Positions 11,553 through 21,957 of a DNA stretch of 35,414 nucleotides are shown here, one piece after another. Position 1 is the stretch's first letter, and every line of letters begins with the position of its first letter. Made by a program: the position numbers and the translations under genes. Source of the DNA: Prolixibacteraceae bacterium (lineage in GTDB: Bacteria > Bacteroidota > Bacteroidia > Bacteroidales > Prolixibacteraceae); contig CANJNY010000040.1 of assembly GCA_947475715.1 (NCBI GenBank), forward strand, positions 1-35,414. The letters are read 5' to 3'. The notes beneath the pieces were generated by a model. That model was not told where the DNA came from and searched no databases. It was given only the letters and a program-made list of their open reading frames with translations.

Positions 11553-14252
11553 TTATTGAATGATCAATTTTTTAGTTGAGCTTCCCTTATTGGAAGTGAC
11601 TGTCATCAAATAGAATCCCTTTCCTTGACGGGTTAAATCAATATTGGTTAAGGTTTGTAAGTTCAGGATTGATGAAGTATATATTTTTTCTCCCAGCATA
11701 TTGGAGATAACCACCTTATATTCCGGAGAACTCCCGAGCAACAGGCTAAATGTACCATTACTTGGATTTGGGAAAACAGTAATCTCGCTTTCATCAAGGT
11801 AATTCTTAACAGGAGTTACCCCTTCGATACTAAAGGTTTGCGCAGCATTTGGACAGATGCTATTTGAAGCAGTAACGGTAATGGGATCAAAGTTCCCGAT
11901 ATTGGGGGGGATCCCGCTCAAAGTCGCACCATCAAAAGTCATCCATGCAGGAGTTCCGGTAACTTTCAGTGATGGCTCGGGTGATCCGGTTGCAACAATT
12001 GAATAGCTGTACAGGGTTCCGGGTTTGGCATAGGAGGCAGGGGTACTTGTAATCGCCGGAGCAGCTGTATGCGGATTCACATTTGAAGAGAGATGCATCT
12101 CATTAAAAATAGTTGCAGTACCCGTCGATGTGGTACCATTGTAACGCATCAGATTCATAATCTTTACACTATGGCTCCCGCAATCGACACGAAGCGAATA
12201 TTCTCCCACATTGTCAGTCCCAAAATTATACCCATTTACGGATCCCGACTTTACCCACATACCAACATTGGAGCCATACGAAAAACAGTTTAATACCTGT
12301 TCGTCGGAAGCTCCGTCAATAATAAGATGTTTCTCAAGAACCTTAGTTACCGGATCAATTAATTGAGTAAATACATTGCTTTCTGACAGCCATCCCGGGA
12401 CACCGTAACTGCAACGATCGGCCTTGGCAGGGTTGGTCAGACAATTCTCAATCCAACCATGAGAACTCGCTCCGACAACAATTCCCTTGTTATATATTGC
12501 CCCTGAAACATTCCGGATAAAATGGTTGTCGCATTGGCTGCTGCCGAAATCGACGGCATTATATATTCCGGTAAGACCAATATTAACCAGATAAAGGTTT
12601 GATCCCGATCCCCGGATCGTAAAGGGAAATGGTTTTACTCCATTTGCCGGATTATTATTCGGGTAGAAAAAGCGAACTCCGCTTATCCCTGCATTGTTCC
12701 CCTTTAAAGTGACCAAAGCAACATCAATTTCTGATTTTGAGGTATTCAGCCCTTCATAACCCAATAATGTAGTTCCAAAACTCAGATCATTCTGGTCGAG
12801 CTGTGGAACCGAGGATGCTCCCCGTAACTCCACATTTGCAGGGACCGAAAGATGGGAACTGATTTTATACCACCCTGCAGGGAGATAAACCACTCCGCCT
12901 CCATGACTGCCGGCATCATTAAGCGCAGCCTGAATTGCAGGCGTGGCATCATTAGCGGGAATAGCGGTTTGAGGAACCGAATATGGGGCGCTATATGGAG
13001 CCTTTGAAACATCGAAGATTTCATTTCGGGTAGTTCGCGGAATGGCCATGCATTCGGTATATGATTCAGCGGTAGTACCCGGTGAATATGTCTGGACACT
13101 TCCACTGGTGAGACCTTCGAGTGTACAGTCGGTTACCTTAATAAATCCGCCGGATAAGTTTTTAACTGAATTAATGCTTCCACTGAGCTTGCTCCGAAGG
13201 AATGAAGTCCCCCACCGATCATCCAGTGCATCAGCCTTTACGGCAATATTAGTGTTAATAATGTTTGCATATACAAACTCTCCGCTGAACTTAATCCGGG
13301 CCCCGTCAACAATATTGATTCCAATGTTATATTCAGAACATTTAATATCATAGAACTGATCCCATTCCAAATCACCTAAAATATAGGCAATGCCATTGGC
13401 ACGTGTCCAGGAATTAAGGGTTGCCAAGGGTGGCGCCTTGTATCTGGCTCCTGCATTAGCCCAATAGGAATTATTAAAATTAATATGCGACCAGGTATCC
13501 ACATCGGCACTATTAAATGCGACAACACCATTGAAAAGTACCGTACCCATTACATTTCTTACTGTTCCACACTCATGAACCTCGGCATGATCCAAAGCAC
13601 ACTTCCCGATACCCCTGTAAGAGTTCAGCATCGTGCAATTGATAACATTATTAGCCATATAGGTTCCCGGCTGACCCGGCCACCCCCCTAAATTAAAAGT
13701 AAAGTTATATGACAGAGGATTATCTGCGTTCTGTAAAGGATAATATACAGTAAGTCCCATGGCGGCAGCAGAACCTCCGATCTGAAAAAGAACCGGCCCA
13801 TTGTCACCAGACCGGACGATCGCACTTATAACTGTGCCATAATCAGAACCAAAACTATCCGGATTACGCCAGTCTCCCCGCAAGGTTACAAAGGACTTCA
13901 CAAAAATTGTGTTTGAGACGGTATAGGTTCCTGAGGGGATCCATACTGTACCACCACCCAAAGCATAACAGGCATCTATGGCGCGCTGTATAGCCAGAGT
14001 TGCATCAATCACCCCGTTACTGTCAGCTCCAAAATCGGTAACATCAAAGTCGGCAATAACAACATCTTCGGTGGGATATCGTGGAATTACAACCTTTGCC
14101 GATGAGGCGGCTAAGGTTTCGGCAAGAAACAGTAGTATAAAAAACACACCCATTATTACAGTTAAATTATTTAAGAATAACCTCCTGTAATTACTATTTT
14201 GTTTAGAAGGATTATCCAATCCTTCAATTAAATCAAGATGTTGCTTGTTCAC
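11553..14252 (-). CDS. Two-lobed beta-helix (pectate lyase-3-like) T9SS cargo protein
   Basis: 899 residues from a GTG at 14252; an ATG at 14153 (residue 34) gives a weak signal peptide without basic residues, so the longer form with RR before the hydrophobic stretch (about 24-46) seems more likely. Two similar lobes open with the pectate-lyase-3/GH55-type motif: VTDFGADSNGVIDATLAIQ...GGGTVWIPSGTY (about 50-100) and IPANDATPAIQAAL...GGGVVYLPAGWY (about 425-470). Each is followed by right-handed beta-helix sequence. A putative-Ig-like domain (about 745-810, TPAWMTFDGATLSGIP) precedes a clear T9SS type A sorting domain starting at F827-P-N-P and ending with KGFYLMTVTSNKGSSTKKLIIQ. It is thus secreted across the outer membrane. 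Catalytic residues and substrate (a polysaccharide is likely) cannot be assigned. Confidence 0.85.
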   Translation of the reverse strand: MNKQHLDLIEGLDNPSKQNSNYRRLFLNNLTVIMGVFFILLFLAETLAASSAKVVIPRYPTEDVVIADFDVTDFGADSNGVIDATLAIQRAIDACYALGGGTVWIPSGTYTVSNTIFVKSFVTLRGDWRNPDSFGSDYGTVISAIVRSGDNGPVLFQIGGSAAAMGLTVYYPLQNADNPLSYNFTFNLGGWPGQPGTYMANNVINCTMLNSYRGIGKCALDHAEVHECGTVRNVMGTVLFNGVVAFNSADVDTWSHINFNNSYWANAGARYKAPPLATLNSWTRANGIAYILGDLEWDQFYDIKCSEYNIGINIVDGARIKFSGEFVYANIINTNIAVKADALDDRWGTSFLRSKLSGSINSVKNLSGGFIKVTDCTLEGLTSGSVQTYSPGTTAESYTECMAIPRTTRNEIFDVSKAPYSAPYSVPQTAIPANDATPAIQAALNDAGSHGGGVVYLPAGWYKISSHLSVPANVELRGASSVPQLDQNDLSFGTTLLGYEGLNTSKSEIDVALVTLKGNNAGISGVRFFYPNNNPANGVKPFPFTIRGSGSNLYLVNIGLTGIYNAVDFGSSQCDNHFIRNVSGAIYNKGIVVGASSHGWIENCLTNPAKADRCSYGVPGWLSESNVFTQLIDPVTKVLEKHLIIDGASDEQVLNCFSYGSNVGMWVKSGSVNGYNFGTDNVGEYSLRVDCGSHSVKIMNLMRYNGTTSTGTATIFNEMHLSSNVNPHTAAPAITSTPASYAKPGTLYSYSIVATGSPEPSLKVTGTPAWMTFDGATLSGIPPNIGNFDPITVTASNSICPNAAQTFSIEGVTPVKNYLDESEITVFPNPSNGTFSLLLGSSPEYKVVISNMLGEKIYTSSILNLQTLTNIDLTRQGKGFYLMTVTSNKGSSTKKLIIQ

Positions 14253-15718: not shown

Positions 15719-17128
15719 TCAATCCGCCTTATCGTGCAGAAACGAATTATTCTTCCTTAAGCGAGGCCCTTCATCTGCCTTGTCTGAGAGTGAATATCTT
15801 GAGATTTCGCGACCATTATCAAGCTGTTTACCGGCATTTTTGGCTTTCCTTCGTTCGTAGGCCGGGATCTTCGATAACTCATCGATATATTCTTCACTCT
15901 CATTGAAAAAATCAACCTGCATAACCCGTCTCCCTTCACCAGAAGAACCATCGCCGAATGGATCGATTCGGATGGGTGGATATAATTGTTTAATGATCTC
16001 ATCTTTCTTGTCAACGGGTGTTTCTGCAAAACCCGGGTATTTGGAAGCATGTATCGTTTCGCTGCCATAAAATCCGGTTGGAAAGGCATTTACATCATCA
16101 AGGAGTGGGATTTTTTCGCGTTGAATCTGACTTCCACTATTCATTTCAGGAATGGAACTCGATTTAAATCCGGTAGCAATCACCGTAACGCTAATCTCTT
16201 CGCCCATTTCAGGGTCAACGGCGACCCCATAAATAAGGTCTGCGTTATTCCCTGCCATCTCCTGTACATATTCGTTAACCAGATTCATCTCGTCCATCGT
16301 TACCTCCTTTATTTCGCCGGAGGTAATATTGACCAGTATATTTTTTGCGCCGCGGATATCATTATTATTCAGCAGTGGTGAATTAATGGCACCCTCGACC
16401 GCCTTTCTGGCGCGATTTTCACCCTGGGCTATAAATGATCCCATAATTGCTACACCGGAATTCTGCATTACCGTGCGGACATCTTCGAAGTCCACATTGA
16501 TAAATCCGGGGCAGGTAATGATCTCTGCGATTCCTTTTGCGGCAATTGCCAGAACATCATCTGCTTTTGAAAAGGCCTTGGAAATCGGAAAATCTCCATA
16601 AATTTCCCGGATCCTTTCATTGTTAATAATCAACAATGAGTCGACATGATTTTCAATCTCCCGAATCCCTTCAATAGCCTGTTGAATTCGTAAACGCCCC
16701 TCATTGCGAAAGGGGATAGAGACAATGCCAATGGTTAAGATCTTACGATCGCGCGCAGCCTTCGCAATCACGGGTGCTGCCCCTGTTCCGGTGCCTCCGC
16801 CCATCCCTGCGGTGATAAAAACCATTTTGGTATTTCCACCCAGAAGCTTCTCAATATCTTTAATATTCTCAATTGCCGAGTCGCGGCCCACATCGGGCTT
16901 ATTCCCTGCTCCCCGTCCCTCAGTCAGCTCAGAGCCAAGCTGAACTTTATACGGCACAGGACTATTCATTAATGCCTGCGCATCGGTATTGCAAACGGCA
17001 AAATCGACATCCTTAATCCCTTGCCGATACATGTGATTAACAGCATTTCCACCACCGCCGCCAACACCAATCACTTTTATAATTTTTTCGCCGTTAACCG
17101 GCAAATTGAAATCCATTAAATCAGACAT
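15719..17128 (-). CDS. ftsZ: Cell division protein FtsZ, canonical copy
   Basis: Tubulin-like GTPase forming the Z-ring. 469 residues from the ATG at 17128; the frame stays open for 34 codons upstream into the preceding ftsZ, but this ATG aligns the start with the paralogue (MSDLMDF against EDLMTF). GTP-binding glycines 21-27 (VGVGGGGGNAVNH in the pair), the tubulin signature GGGTGTG (110-116) and T7 catalytic residues N211, D213 and D216 (NVDFED) are intact. After a linker of about 90 residues comes the conserved C-terminal peptide IPAYERR (421-427), which binds FtsA and other partners. A further 42 residues end in NNSFLHDKAD, as in other Bacteroidota FtsZ. It lies 34 nt after the first ftsZ, surely on the same transcript. 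Confidence 0.96.
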   Translation of the reverse strand: MSDLMDFNLPVNGEKIIKVIGVGGGGGNAVNHMYRQGIKDVDFAVCNTDAQALMNSPVPYKVQLGSELTEGRGAGNKPDVGRDSAIENIKDIEKLLGGNTKMVFITAGMGGGTGTGAAPVIAKAARDRKILTIGIVSIPFRNEGRLRIQQAIEGIREIENHVDSLLIINNERIREIYGDFPISKAFSKADDVLAIAAKGIAEIITCPGFINVDFEDVRTVMQNSGVAIMGSFIAQGENRARKAVEGAINSPLLNNNDIRGAKNILVNITSGEIKEVTMDEMNLVNEYVQEMAGNNADLIYGVAVDPEMGEEISVTVIATGFKSSSIPEMNSGSQIQREKIPLLDDVNAFPTGFYGSETIHASKYPGFAETPVDKKDEIIKQLYPPIRIDPFGDGSSGEGRRVMQVDFFNESEEYIDELSKIPAYERRKAKNAGKQLDNGREISRYSLSDKADEGPRLRKNNSFLHDKAD

Positions 17129-17162: not shown

Positions 17163-18479
17163 TCATTTATCAATTTCCGCATCATCTTCGCTAAACAATC
17201 CGCCGAATTGTCTGTGAAACCAACTGCCAATTGGTTCTGCAGATTCGGATTGTTTTACATTAGGCTTTTTCACCGTTTTAGTAATCCGTTCCTGTCGGCT
17301 GGCGTCCCGTTTTTCTTCATCTTTGCGGATTGTAAAGGTTTCGTCCGGGGTGATCTCAAAATTCCGGAAGGTCTCTTCAGGCTCCAAAACTGTCTTACGC
17401 TGAGTAAACGACTCTGAGTTATCCGACTGACTTACGGGTTCATTGGCAGGTATAACCACGGTCTCCTTCAAGGGTTCAGGGCGCAGGATCCGGTTTGGAT
17501 TAATCTCGAATCCTGTTGCAATAACTGTCACACTAATTTTATTCCCAAGTTTAGGATCATAGCCATTACCCCAGATTATATTGGCATTATCACCGGCAGC
17601 ATCCTGCAAATAATCGATGATATCACCAATTTCACCCATTCGTACCTCATCTTCACCGGAGGTGATATTGAGGAGGATATTTTCTGTGCCATTAATATTA
17701 TTACTATCTAGAAGCGGTGACTTAAGCGCCTCTTCAGCCGCTCGGGTGGCACGATTCTCCCCTTCGGCGAAACCTGTTCCCATAATGAAAACCCCACTTT
17801 CGCGCAACACAGTATTGACATCTGCGAAGTCTATGTTGATATTTCCATGCAGGGTGATTATTTCGGCACATCCTTTTACCGCAGTTGCCACAATATTATC
17901 GGCCTGAGCAAATGCCTCACGCGCAGGGAGATCGCCATACACCTTATGAAGGTTTTCATTACTAATCACAAGGAGGCTATCTACGAAACGCTGAAGTTTT
18001 TTTATACCATCTATCGCCTGGTCATATCGGAGCCGACCCTCTTTGATTGAAGGGAGGGTCACCACAGCGATCGTGAGGATATCCATTTCGCGGGCCAGCT
18101 GGGCAATCACCGGTGCGGCACCTGTTCCAGTACCACCACCCATTCCGGCAGTAATAAAAACCATTTTGGTTCCTGTCTCCAGCACCGCTCTGATCTCTGC
18201 GAGGTTTTCTATGGCTGCCTGTTCTCCCCGTTTGGGTTTATTCCCTGCTCCACGCCCCTCTGTCAGGGAGACACCCAGTTGAACTTTGACCGGAACCGGA
18301 CTGTTTATGAGTGCCTGCGAATCGGTATTACAAACAAGAAAATCAACACCAGCTATTCCTTTTCGAAACATATGGTTCACCGCATTCCCACCACCACCAC
18401 CAACACCAACAACCTTGATGATGGATTGGTAATCGTGCTGAAACCCGAAGGTCATTAAATCTTCTGAAATGTTTTCCAT
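17163..18479 (-). CDS. ftsZ: Second FtsZ paralogue without the usual C-terminal peptide
   Basis: 438 residues, adjacent upstream paralogue of the canonical ftsZ. The GTPase core looks functional: GVGGGGGNAVNH (25-36), GGGTGTG (114-120) and T7 residues N215, D217, D220 (NIDFAD). Residues 22-92 differ from the other copy at only 16 of 71 positions. Differences fall in regions usually conserved, e.g. TLPSIKEG against SIPFRNEG, and ITLHGNIN against ITCPGFIN. The linker (about 325-415) is rich in Glu, Arg and Lys. There is no IPAYERR peptide; the protein ends in EPIGSWFHRQFGGLFSEDD plus AEIDK, an aromatic segment and acidic tail resembling the FtsA C-terminus (GLMSDEDSEIN). I infer possible direct membrane or divisome binding. 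It lies 18 nt after ftsA. Confidence 0.93.
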   Translation of the reverse strand: MENISEDLMTFGFQHDYQSIIKVVGVGGGGGNAVNHMFRKGIAGVDFLVCNTDSQALINSPVPVKVQLGVSLTEGRGAGNKPKRGEQAAIENLAEIRAVLETGTKMVFITAGMGGGTGTGAAPVIAQLAREMDILTIAVVTLPSIKEGRLRYDQAIDGIKKLQRFVDSLLVISNENLHKVYGDLPAREAFAQADNIVATAVKGCAEIITLHGNINIDFADVNTVLRESGVFIMGTGFAEGENRATRAAEEALKSPLLDSNNINGTENILLNITSGEDEVRMGEIGDIIDYLQDAAGDNANIIWGNGYDPKLGNKISVTVIATGFEINPNRILRPEPLKETVVIPANEPVSQSDNSESFTQRKTVLEPEETFRNFEITPDETFTIRKDEEKRDASRQERITKTVKKPNVKQSESAEPIGSWFHRQFGGLFSEDDAEIDK

Positions 18480-18497
18480 GTGATTAACTAATTGATT

Positions 18498-19820
18498 TTA
18501 ATTTATTTCGCTATCTTCATCCGACATTAAACCGTTTATTCCATCTTTTGCCTTGTCAAAAAATCCTGTGACCAACGTCTTTATTCCATGACGTTTTTCA
18601 GGCTCGACTTTTTTCACTTCCTCGGGAGTATTTGAGACAATCATTCCCTGGGGATAATTCTGACTTCGGGCCTGATAAAGTCCATGGATAAGCAATCCCA
18701 TAACATTTGCCGACTGCAAGTTCATAAACTGCTCATTCATTAAGTGTTCCTCAATCGGGACGATCGGTTTACCAAACCTGACATCCAGTCCGGTCATATA
18801 ACTAACCAGTTTATCAATTCCGCGCATATTGGAGCCTCCGCCGGCCAGCACAATCCCTGCACCCAATTTATTCCGCAGGTTGGTCGATTCAAGCTGATAA
18901 GCGACCCCTTCAATAATCTCTTCAAGCCGCGCCTGAATGATCCCTGAGAGGTTTCTGAAACTAATCTCTTTGGCATTCCACCCTTCGACTTCGGGAATCT
19001 GGGCAAACTTATTTTCCGGAACCAGCTCAGAAAAAGCATATCCGCACTGAATTTTTACTATTTCAGCATGACGTGGAATAATATTGCACCCTTCGCGGAT
19101 ATCGTTTGAGATCACATTTCCACCAAAAGGTAATTCAGCAGCTAAGCGTAATTTGTTTTCATAGAAGAGGGAAACGCCCGTTGTTCCGGCTCCAAAATCA
19201 AGCAAAATAACTCCGGCCTCTTTTTCATCTTTGGATAGAAAGGCTGCTCCCTGAACATAGGGATTTACGAATGCTCCGGCAAGTTCATATCCTCCCTTTT
19301 CGATACTCTTGCGAAGATTCTGTTCATACGATTCAGGAGCCGAGATAACCCTGAAGGTTCCTTCAACACGGCGTCCTGCCATTCCAACCGGATTATTGAC
19401 ACCACGCTCACCATCTACCGTAAATTCCTCTGCGGTAATATGATAAATTTTTTCCCCGGGGCCACCCGAATATCGTTGTACCTCTCCACTTAAGGAATTA
19501 ATGATTGCCTGTGTAACTTCCCCGTTATCGGTCATCCGGTAGGCCGAAACCTGTCGGTTATTGATTTTCTGTCCCGATATTCCTGCAAAAACTCTTTTAA
19601 CTCTCAGGTTAAGAGATCTTTCCAATGAACTGACAACGGTCTTGATTGATACGGATGCTTCGTCAATATTTACCACAACCCCGTTACGAACTCCCTGAGT
19701 AAGGGTTTCGCTAAATGCCACGATTTCGAGTTTACCGTCTGAGGTAAAACGCCCAACTGCCCCTCTGGTTCTAAAGGTTCCAATGTCAATTGCGGCAACC
19801 ATCTCTCTTGTCCGGTTCAT
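18498..19820 (-). CDS. ftsA: Cell division protein FtsA
   Basis: Actin-like ATPase that tethers FtsZ to the membrane and signals to the septal synthase. 440 residues with the actin-fold motifs: phosphate 1 AAIDIGTFRTRGAVGRF (9-25), phosphate 2 VILLDFGAGTTGVSLFY (about 205-220), and adenosine loop GIVLAGGGSNMRG (about 325-337). The C-terminus carries the expected amphipathic membrane-targeting segment (about 412-432, IKTLVTGFFDKAKDGINGLM), followed by acidic SDEDSEIN. That tail resembles the end of the adjacent non-canonical FtsZ. The gene lies 6 nt after ftsQ in the dcw transcript. Confidence 0.96.
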   Translation of the reverse strand: MNRTREMVAAIDIGTFRTRGAVGRFTSDGKLEIVAFSETLTQGVRNGVVVNIDEASVSIKTVVSSLERSLNLRVKRVFAGISGQKINNRQVSAYRMTDNGEVTQAIINSLSGEVQRYSGGPGEKIYHITAEEFTVDGERGVNNPVGMAGRRVEGTFRVISAPESYEQNLRKSIEKGGYELAGAFVNPYVQGAAFLSKDEKEAGVILLDFGAGTTGVSLFYENKLRLAAELPFGGNVISNDIREGCNIIPRHAEIVKIQCGYAFSELVPENKFAQIPEVEGWNAKEISFRNLSGIIQARLEEIIEGVAYQLESTNLRNKLGAGIVLAGGGSNMRGIDKLVSYMTGLDVRFGKPIVPIEEHLMNEQFMNLQSANVMGLLIHGLYQARSQNYPQGMIVSNTPEEVKKVEPEKRHGIKTLVTGFFDKAKDGINGLMSDEDSEIN

Positions 19821-19826
19821 AGTTAT

Positions 19827-20576
19827 TTATTTTTTTGTGCAAATAATCTGATTCTGAAATTCTAAATTGATGGATTTATAAATACTCCACCCTCCATCCT
19901 TAAAACCATCGGTATATAATGCCTTAAGATTACGAAATTTTGTCTGAAAATCACCAGGGGCTCCGAACAGGATAATTTGTTCACCAACCCTGGGAATCAT
20001 CGAAAGCTCCCCGACCGCATTGACATAAATCTGGTCAATCTGAGCACTTAAAAATTTATCGTCATTAATATAAGTAATCAAAGGGAGTAACTTTTTTCGG
20101 GCAAACTCCGCAGATACAAGACCGCCGACAATCATTACCCTGGGGGTATACCGGGGTGACCACTCAATAACCTTTCCAAGCTTGTCCATATAAAAAGCAC
20201 TCGACCCGACAACTCTGAAAACCGGCTCCCGCTGTTTTATTCTCACAACAAGGGACCCAAAGCTTTTAGGACCCTGCTCGTAAACATTGGTATAAACATC
20301 GACCTCCTCTATCGCGTGCAGTTTTCGTAACCCGTCTTCGATTTTCCGCAGATTAACATCCTGCAAAGGTAATCCAAATATTCCCTGATAATTTCGGTGT
20401 ACCCATTGCCTGATATCACTGTTTTCGATAAAATGCTGACTTGCAGAGTCTGCAATTTCCACCTTTACATTTGCACATTTTAATTGATGAGTTTGTTGTA
20501 TAGAGAATCCCAGTGACACAAATATCACGATCAGAGAGAGGCTCCAGAGCACACTATTTACAATTTTATTAAACAT
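19827..20576 (-). CDS. ftsQ: Cell division protein FtsQ
   Basis: Bitopic division protein linking early and late divisome components. The best start is the ATG at 20576 (249 residues), overlapping the end of murC by 8 nt; a TTG at 20591 in the same frame would add five residues. It has a short basic N-terminus, a membrane helix (about 9-27, VLWSLSLIVIFVSLGFS), a POTRA-like region (about 35-120; IRQWVHRNYQGIFGLPLQDVNLRKIEDGL and the RIKQREPVF strand) and the FtsQ beta domain with FYMDKLGKVIEWSPRYTPRVMIVGG. Sequence conservation in this family is low, but position between murC and ftsA supports it. Confidence 0.92.
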   Translation of the reverse strand: MFNKIVNSVLWSLSLIVIFVSLGFSIQQTHQLKCANVKVEIADSASQHFIENSDIRQWVHRNYQGIFGLPLQDVNLRKIEDGLRKLHAIEEVDVYTNVYEQGPKSFGSLVVRIKQREPVFRVVGSSAFYMDKLGKVIEWSPRYTPRVMIVGGLVSAEFARKKLLPLITYINDDKFLSAQIDQIYVNAVGELSMIPRVGEQIILFGAPGDFQTKFRNLKALYTDGFKDGGWSIYKSINLEFQNQIICTKK

Positions 20577-21957
20577 TCTCGTTTTCAACAAGATAATTTA
20601 TAATCGGTTCAATAAGACGGTCTATATCGCCTGCCCCCAGCGTGAGAAGGATTTCTGGCTGATAGTTTCCCAGTATGGCCGGGAAATCGCTGTTTTGGCA
20701 TCGTAATTTACTTACTGAGTTCATCTTATCCAGAATAATACCCGAGTTAACACCTTCCATCGGCAATTCACGCGCCGGATAGATCTCCATAACCAGTGCG
20801 TCATCAAGCAGATCCAGTGCGGCAGCAAAATCTGCGGCAAAGTCATTGGTCCGCGAAAAAAGGTGGGGTTGGAAAATTCCGGTCACTCTTTTCCCGGGAT
20901 AAAGATCGCGAACCGAACGAATAGTCGCTTCAAGCTCACGCGGGTGATGCGCATAGTCGTCGATATAAATGGTCTTCTTTCCCTTGTATCTCACATCAAA
21001 TCGACGTACAACACCACTATATTGGGCCAGAGCCAGCCTGATCTCGTCGGCAGTAACTCCGCTGAGCAGGGCCATTGCGCATGAGGCAACCGCATTCTCA
21101 ACATTCATTAATCCGGGATAGGTAAGGCAAAGATTTTCAATTACCCCTGTGGGGGTCTTCAAATCAAAATGATAAGCACCATCTACAATATGAATATCAA
21201 TGGCCTGATAATCGGATAATTCATTAATAGAATAAGAATAATATTGAATTTGTGTATTCCACTGACCGTCGATATTCAGACCATTACGGTATAATAATGT
21301 TCCATTTGGGTGGATTTGCGAAACGAAATCACCAAATGCTTTAACCATAGTTTGATGATCTCCATAAATATCAAGGTGATCAGCATCCATCCAGGTAATT
21401 ACAGCGAGTTCAGGGTGCAATTGAAGAAATGAACGGTCAAATTCATCTGCTTCAACAACGATAAACGGACTATTATTATCGGGCAGCAAGAGATTTGTCT
21501 CATAATTTTTCGAGATTCCCCCCATAAATGCAGAGCAGTCGATATGCGATTGTTTCAACAGATGGGCAGTCATGGTGGTAACCGAAGTTTTCCCATGTGT
21601 TCCGGCGATAGCTATACAACGTCGCCCGGCAGTGAGTAAACCAAGAACTGCCGATCTTTTATACATTGAAAATCCGTTTTCACGGAAATAGAGGAATTCA
21701 GCAAAGTTAACCGGAACAGCGGGAGTATAAATAACCACGGTGGTATCCTTCTCTTCAGGTTTCGGAACCTTGGTCAGGTCATCCTTATAATGGATTGGAA
21801 TCCCCTCTTTTTCAAGTGCGAGAGTAAGTGAAGTGGGTGTTTTGTCGTAACCACGAACCTGCTTTCCGATGAATTGGAAATACCGTGCCAATGCACTCAT
21901 ACCAATACCACCAATGCCCAGCAGGTAAATCTGTTTTATGTTTTTAATTTCAATCAT
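20569..21957 (-). CDS. murC: UDP-N-acetylmuramate--L-alanine ligase
   Basis: Adds L-alanine to UDP-MurNAc, the first peptide step of peptidoglycan precursor synthesis. 462 residues with the three Mur ligase domains: N-terminal UDP-binding Rossmann region with GIGGIGMSALA (about 14-24), ATP-binding loop GTHGKTSVT (about 119-127), and a C-terminal domain containing DDYAHHPRE and GIFQPHLFSRT, both MurC hallmarks. The start ATG overlaps the murG stop as TAATG, a sign of translational coupling, and the 3' end overlaps ftsQ. Confidence 0.97.
   Translation of the reverse strand: MIEIKNIKQIYLLGIGGIGMSALARYFQFIGKQVRGYDKTPTSLTLALEKEGIPIHYKDDLTKVPKPEEKDTTVVIYTPAVPVNFAEFLYFRENGFSMYKRSAVLGLLTAGRRCIAIAGTHGKTSVTTMTAHLLKQSHIDCSAFMGGISKNYETNLLLPDNNSPFIVVEADEFDRSFLQLHPELAVITWMDADHLDIYGDHQTMVKAFGDFVSQIHPNGTLLYRNGLNIDGQWNTQIQYYSYSINELSDYQAIDIHIVDGAYHFDLKTPTGVIENLCLTYPGLMNVENAVASCAMALLSGVTADEIRLALAQYSGVVRRFDVRYKGKKTIYIDDYAHHPRELEATIRSVRDLYPGKRVTGIFQPHLFSRTNDFAADFAAALDLLDDALVMEIYPARELPMEGVNSGIILDKMNSVSKLRCQNSDFPAILGNYQPEILLTLGAGDIDRLIEPIINYLVENENV

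Follow-up and report, generated by a model that had tools for sequence, protein, structure and literature searches.

A tandem FtsZ pair in the Prolixibacteraceae, one copy of which is predicted to carry its own FtsA-like membrane anchor

The ftsA-ftsZ1-ftsZ2 cluster and its conservation in the family

The stretch of DNA considered here (the window) comprises 35,414 nucleotides of contig CANJNY010000040.1 from a Prolixibacteraceae bacterium (Bacteroidota) and contains a division cluster in which ftsA is followed by two ftsZ genes, ftsZ1 and ftsZ2, in this order on the minus strand and with gaps of 18 and 34 bases. All features of the cluster described below lie on that strand. The ftsA gene (18498..19820) encodes 440 amino acids and is recognised by TIGR01174 (279.4 bits) and by Pfam PF14450 and PF02491. 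An ATG-initiated open reading frame (ORF) of 438 amino acids (17163..18479) represents ftsZ1, while ftsZ2 (15719..17128), which is of the usual Bacteroidota type, begins with an ATG at 17128, with an upstream TTG of the same ORF at 17230. Both proteins are FtsZ according to TIGR00065 (352.8 bits for FtsZ1 and 364 bits for FtsZ2, the NCBIfam cut-off being 295.2 bits) and both have the two Pfam FtsZ domains, PF00091 and PF12327. No FtsZ besides these two was found in a search of the genome (315 contigs), and the nearest named matches are Prolixibacter, Maribellus and a Draconibacterium metagenome-assembled genome.

The two paralogs differ in how they end. FtsZ2 has the C-terminal peptide (CTP) IPAYERR (15848..15868) and a conserved C-terminus NNSFLHDKAD (15722..15751), with similar ends in most of 80 named loci. 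FtsZ1 terminates in GSWFHRQFGGLFSEDDAEIDK and is devoid of a PA[YF]xRR motif, so that an earlier note on this DNA was right in calling it an FtsZ without IPAYERR and with a non-canonical tail. The range given in the note, 17163 to 18533, goes beyond the ftsZ1 ORF, which reaches to 18479, and includes the last 11 codons of ftsA (18501-18533). In FtsZ1, a variable charged linker (residues 327-416, 17232..17501), identified by unconserved alignment columns, a predicted local distance difference test score (pLDDT) below 50 at residues 343-416 and the proportion of nonsynonymous differences (pN, 0.297 in the genus), leads to an amphipathic helix region, GSWFHRQFGGLF (residues 418-429, 17193..17228), which is supported by conservation, a model helix at 418-425 and the hydrophobic moment, and which includes W420 (17220-17222) and F429 (17193-17195). 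The acidic end SEDDAEIDK (residues 430-438, 17166..17192) falls within the stretch matched by the FtsA tail. In FtsA, the region TLVTGFFDKAKDGIN (residues 415-429, 18534..18578) is presumably the membrane-targeting helix, placed by analogy with FtsA C-terminal anchors, and the protein ends in GLMSDEDSEIN (18501..18533).

This reciprocal distribution of CTP and tail recurs at loci across the family. Our sample consists of 73 loci with two FtsZ (including one site twice, L028 and L194 of genome G074, and with identical FtsZ1 in Prolixibacter L034 and in L023), in which distinct sequences were counted and 14 incomplete copies were excluded from the tail and CTP counts. The tryptophan-containing tail (W-tail) was counted 69 times among 70 distinct complete FtsZ1 and a true CTP not once, the sole match to the search pattern (L028) being a false one within the linker. 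Among 58 distinct complete FtsZ2 it is the other way round, with the CTP in 57 and the W-tail in none. Unrelated tails in orthologues of FtsZ1, which the earlier note had named as fatal to its proposal, are thus not what was found. One locus, L150 (genome G013, listed completeness 84%), is the exception for the FtsZ1 tail and the FtsZ2 CTP alike. At named loci with a single FtsZ, the W motif is absent from all 75 complete proteins and the CTP is present in 74.

The ftsA gene is retained at all 73 loci; the test of its order failed at L154 solely because the stop-to-stop frame of FtsZ1 there extends upstream into ftsA. FtsZ1 is matched in 96 of 100 genomes of the family, with at least two match rows in 94 genomes, one in two and none in four, bearing in mind that a match row may correspond to a gene fragment and that the four genomes without a match have listed completeness values of 84, 80, 95 and 71%. 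A frame or assembly artefact is ruled out, as the pair recurs in the 73 family loci, which include those of the isolates Maribellus luteus (L033) and Prolixibacter bellariivorans (L034).

An alignment of 35 chosen FtsZ1 sequences (the divergent L150 and L151 were excluded) showed W420 and F429 to be invariant and F421 and F425 to be conserved in at least 90%, with no conservation in the linker. The GTP-binding motif GGGTGTG (114-120) and the T7-loop residues N215, D217 and D220 (NxDxxD) are invariant in the same set, from which it follows that FtsZ1 should polymerise and hydrolyse GTP, as far as motifs can tell. In two genera, pN was 0.297 and 0.416 for the linker versus 0.158 and 0.078 for the tail, the proportion of synonymous differences (pS) being similar (0.64 to 0.76), which indicates that purifying selection is stronger on the tail than on the linker. 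For the core, the ratio of nonsynonymous to synonymous substitution rates (dN/dS) was 0.012-0.014, with pS near saturation.

As to the surroundings of the three genes, the ORF upstream of ftsA (19827..20591, minus strand) is taken to be ftsQ by position, and a further ORF upstream in the cluster resembles, we presume, murC. A YqeY-like gene (PF09424, 15185-15634) lies directly downstream of ftsZ2. Elsewhere in the window are a pectate-lyase-like protein with a Por secretion tail (11553-14252) and a 736 amino acid ORF (244-2454) that has no Pfam match at E 0.001; no RNA family reached its gathering threshold in the window.

The FtsZ1 tail compared with FtsA C-termini

The terminal 11-residue blocks of the two neighbouring proteins, GLFSEDDAEID in FtsZ1 and GLMSDEDSEIN in FtsA, are identical at six positions, as the earlier note had counted, whereas none of 319 unrelated C-termini shared more than four. 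The BLOSUM62 local score of the 20-residue tails is 35, a value attained by none of the 319 against the FtsA tail. That ftsA and ftsZ1 recently underwent gene conversion, an idea also discounted in the note, is ruled out because only 19 of 33 bases of the two blocks are identical, a stretch too short to separate descent from convergence.

The resemblance extends to the family. With a profile made of 61 distinct FtsZ1 tails, 862 C-termini were searched, among them 507 controls, and the top 43 hits consisted of 33 FtsA, seven tailed FtsZ of other families and three held-out FtsZ1 (L194, L012 and L013, which had been sorted into the CTP-type FtsZ group), with the first control at rank 44. Ranks are quoted instead of p-values because related sequences inflate the latter. 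Family FtsA (71 sequences) separated from controls with an area under the curve (AUC) of 0.96, FtsA of the named loci with a single FtsZ (75 sequences) with 0.77 and FtsA of other families that have a tailed FtsZ (14 sequences) with 0.73.

FtsA and FtsZ1 tails of the same genome match better than those paired across genomes (21.3 vs 18.7, p=0.004, in 28 lineages with <80% core identity), and this holds for the 17 lineages of the family alone (p=0.015). These comparisons exclude L086, L129, L131-L133, L139, L150, L181 and loci without a complete ftsA, and lack L012, L013, L025, L028 and L194 because the CTP pattern was too loose or part of the sequence was masked. No such excess was seen in two negative controls in 23 lineages, which paired FtsA with FtsZ2 (p=0.21) and FtsA with the FtsZ1 linker (p=0.74). 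The lineage of the window is among those with the best-matching pairs. Judged by these comparisons, the FtsZ1 tail resembles FtsA C-termini beyond chance.

The tail also looks like an amphipathic helix. When 60 distinct tails were anchored on the tryptophan, positions 0, 1, 5, 8 and 9 were hydrophobic and position 3 was basic (R in 39, K in 17). The best 11-residue hydrophobic moment within the last 26 residues had a median of 0.639 in 28 FtsZ1 and 0.594 in 28 FtsA versus 0.343 in 23 FtsZ2, the median of 507 control C-termini of equal length being 0.510 (AUC 0.69 for FtsA and 0.18 for FtsZ2); compared with shuffles of the same tail, p<0.05 was obtained for eight of 28 FtsA and none of 23 FtsZ2. 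In the AlphaFold2 model of FtsZ1, residues 418-425 form, at low confidence, the single helix of at least four residues past the globular domain within an otherwise disordered extension; at the N-terminus, there is no helix before residue 21 and residues 1-16 have a pLDDT below 50. The FtsA model drops below a pLDDT of 50 from residue 400 and shows a short helix at 425-428. By all appearances, FtsZ1 has a conserved amphipathic terminal segment beyond a linker, as in the class of self-anchoring FtsZ.

Tailed FtsZ in other families and its origin

FtsZ was found in 290 of the 295 genomes from the order. Most families have a single copy, while f19, f28, f63, f77, f96 and some other families show 2-3 match rows. 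Twelve loci of f19, f28, f63, f77, f13 and f96 (L163-L174) share one arrangement, in which ftsA is followed by one or two ftsZ copies with a helix tail and without CTP and these by a last ftsZ with CTP. In the helix-tailed copies, the hydrophobic helix lies close to the C-terminus and mostly precedes an acidic end; less clear cases are L171, where the helix is farther from the end, L172, which is highly divergent, and the middle copy of L169, which matches a loose CTP pattern and not the stricter one. At L167, L168 and L170 (f28) and L169 (f63), there are three tandem ftsZ past ftsA, two with different hydrophobic-helix ends and then the copy with CTP. In f96, FtsA terminates in a bare helix that lacks an acidic end (...GKIFGI and ...KKFFGI in L173 and L174); FtsZ1 at these loci has a helix with tryptophan, and in L173 an acidic end, while the last FtsZ stops right past the CTP. 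Marinifilum (L037) has the FtsZ1/FtsZ2 pair. No such pair occurs in f74, where the second FtsZ match is short and distant.

In 392 genomes across the phylum, at least two FtsZ match rows were seen in 24, of which 17 belong to f125, a family of another class. The notion that the CTP is invariably lost from additional copies of FtsZ is ruled out, as those in six f125 genomes end in CTP-like motifs. Those of f125 (L207-L209, L211, L212, L214, L217, L218) lie away from ftsA and carry PAYLRR, PAFERR, PAFLRL and similar motifs, some with a second one.

In a tree of 91 FtsZ cores, FtsZ1 of the family forms one clade (support 100/100) and FtsZ2 of the family another (99/95), and the tailed copies need five changes, a count that excludes both rows of L172, FtsZ1 of L151, L104 and both rows of L150. 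The placement of Marinifilum FtsZ1 is unstable, either with its own FtsZ2 (99/85) or with FtsZ1 of f96 (98/85, in a 97-row tree that contained the mis-labelled rows L057 and L036). Several independent origins are suggested by the five changes, but this reading was dropped as the only one, since a tree that holds the 36 tailed copies together as a single clade is not rejected (p=0.444); neither is a clade of family FtsZ1 with Marinifilum FtsZ1 (p=0.234). One ancient origin with losses and several gains are both compatible with these trees. It is possible, though we propose it only tentatively, that the Bacteroidales repeatedly evolved a fusion of FtsZ with a membrane anchor beside ftsA, in separate duplications in which the CTP was replaced by an FtsA-type anchor and the last copy kept the CTP, the anchors of FtsA and FtsZ1 then having co-evolved through a shared membrane site or partner. 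If true, bacteria would thereby have their own equivalent of the FtsZ1/FtsZ2 split of chloroplasts.

Self-anchoring as the favoured explanation

Of several possible explanations for these observations, we favour one where FtsZ1 is a natural chimera of FtsZ and a membrane anchor that is paired with an FtsA-dependent FtsZ2; we consider this probable, with membrane binding as a prediction from the sequences. FtsZ1 would be a polymerising paralog attached to the inner membrane by its own tail, in which a flexible linker leads to a short amphipathic helix, with W, F and L on one face and R and K on the other, and an acidic end. This tail, which would have the same build as the C-terminus of FtsA in these bacteria, would take the place of the CTP that tethers an ordinary FtsZ to FtsA, while FtsZ2, having kept its CTP, would depend on FtsA. 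Within one Z-ring, the two proteins could co-assemble or lie alongside each other, and the ring would thereby have two independent tethers, an intrinsic one (FtsZ1) and an adaptor-mediated one (FtsZ2-FtsA). The gene pair, the opposite distribution of CTP and tail, the conserved tail, the intact GTPase motifs and the likeness to FtsA tails are observations; that FtsZ1 and the FtsA of these species bind the membrane, that the two FtsZ co-assemble and that they divide the labour are inferences.

A tail that binds the membrane or a shared partner had already been proposed in the earlier note, and this part is supported by conservation, purifying selection, amphipathicity, the predicted helix and the match of the profile to FtsA. 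The corollary that FtsZ1 bypasses FtsA finds no support, since ftsA is kept at all 73 family loci and the neighbouring FtsZ2 has its CTP with one exception. With FtsA constantly present, we take the two FtsZ to divide the labour and not to bypass FtsA.

Several observations count against self-anchoring or limit its reach. The first is again the retention of FtsA, as a tether on FtsZ1 is no replacement for it. Anionic lipid would be expected to repel the acidic end, though FtsA ends alike. The hydrophobic moment of FtsZ1 separates only moderately from that of the equal-length controls (AUC 0.75) and exceeds same-tail shuffles (p<0.05) in only 11 of 28 cases; in the amphipathicity check that the note had suggested, FtsZ1 tails collectively surpass FtsZ2 tails and controls, and the window tail taken alone has p=0.097 against its shuffles. 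The model helix has a low pLDDT (mean 56 over 421-430, the blocks from 341 to 420 having means of 31-45). CTP-type FtsZ ends, a group including the three mis-sorted FtsZ1, also score somewhat higher than controls with the tail profile (AUC 0.70), and the own FtsA/FtsZ1 pair is in the top 5% of controls in only 12 of 28 lineages. Finally, both tethers are altered in one lineage, L150, where the FtsZ1 tail is aberrant, glycine-rich and hydrophobic, and FtsZ2 is without a recognisable CTP.

The most serious competitor is a tail that binds protein and not lipid, such that the aromatic helix and acidic end of FtsA and of FtsZ1 dock on one shared partner, be it a component of the divisome, a regulator or an adaptor for a protease. 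The lineage-by-lineage matching of the two tails, significant also within the family, is not required of a generic lipid anchor, the acidic end is common to both proteins, and the invariance of W and F in the 35 FtsZ1 is stricter than expected of such an anchor. On the other hand, in other families the tailed FtsZ copies may have F, L, I, M or W at the hydrophobic positions, which is the kind of variation seen in lipid anchors, and FtsA of f96 lacks the acidic end that FtsZ1 of L173 possesses, so that a common acidic dock is not universal. We regard protein docking as the less likely function, at roughly one chance in four.

Somewhat less likely still is convergence of simple composition, where FtsA and FtsZ1 each require a short C-terminus that is amphipathic and acidic, and their close resemblance in the window is fortuitous. 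This concerns the resemblance only and is compatible with a membrane anchor, so that its odds overlap with those of self-anchoring. In 16 of 28 lineages the own pair is outside the top 5% of controls, and FtsA of named loci with a single FtsZ already fits the FtsZ1 profile, both of which suit convergence; the ranking against the 507 controls and the same-genome excess, with its two flat negative controls, do not. That FtsZ1 is a decaying or regulatory duplicate which merely lost its CTP is scarcely credible, and decay is largely ruled out, for although FtsZ1 evolves faster (stem 0.55 vs 0.10 for FtsZ2), its catalytic motifs are invariant, its core dN/dS is 0.012-0.014, its tail is under constraint and at least two FtsZ match rows persist in 94 of 100 family genomes.

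Self-anchoring has precedents. The nearest biological parallels, by analogy, are the FtsZ1/FtsZ2 pairs of chloroplasts and of Odinarchaeota. In chloroplasts, too, one of two paralogs has an adaptor-binding C-terminus, that of FtsZ2 binding ARC6, and the other a short C-terminus that is weakly membrane-binding; the pair differs in stemming from a duplication in the green lineage, in using ARC6 where FtsA presumably serves here, and in the angiosperm motif RR/KLFF at the extreme end, as against W[FLI]xRQFxxLF followed by an acidic end (SEDDAEIDK in the window) (PMC11285052). In Odinarchaeota, one paralog self-anchors by an amphipathic helix and the other attaches via an adaptor, but the helix is N-terminal, the duplication archaeal and the adaptor SepF, not FtsA (PMC12583498). 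Mycoplasma FtsZ likewise has its own N- or C-terminal membrane binding, and is not stated there to be a member of a tandem pair (Dutta et al. 2025, via PMC12583498). An engineered FtsZ-YFP of E. coli, in which core and linker were joined to the FtsA membrane-targeting sequence (FtsZ-YFP-mts[FtsA]), bound membranes strongly and formed treadmilling rings, slower than those with weaker anchors (PMC7320174); that is a laboratory chimera, whereas the one proposed here would be natural and is paired with a CTP-bearing FtsZ. The FtsA membrane-targeting sequence itself is a short amphipathic C-terminal segment, in the family of the window also with an acidic end, but is borne by an actin-like adaptor and not by FtsZ, and FtsZ1 differs from canonical FtsZ tethered by FtsA/ZipA in having no PA[YF]xRR-like CTP.

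No description of such an FtsZ pair in Bacteroidota was found among the papers listed by literature searches, most subscription papers not being covered. A survey of FtsZ evolution places extra bacterial FtsZ copies outside the division and cell wall (dcw) cluster (PMC9871819), and a whole family with a tandem ftsZ pair inside dcw runs counter to that statement. The findings bear on the reasons for which FtsZ should require an adaptor at all and on the ways in which two FtsZ within the same ring may serve one another. Both questions become testable with a natural FtsZ that bears a putative FtsA-like anchor and is accompanied by an ordinary FtsZ and by FtsA, and the pair is carried by genera with cultured members, Prolixibacter (L034), Maribellus (L033) and Marinifilum (L037).

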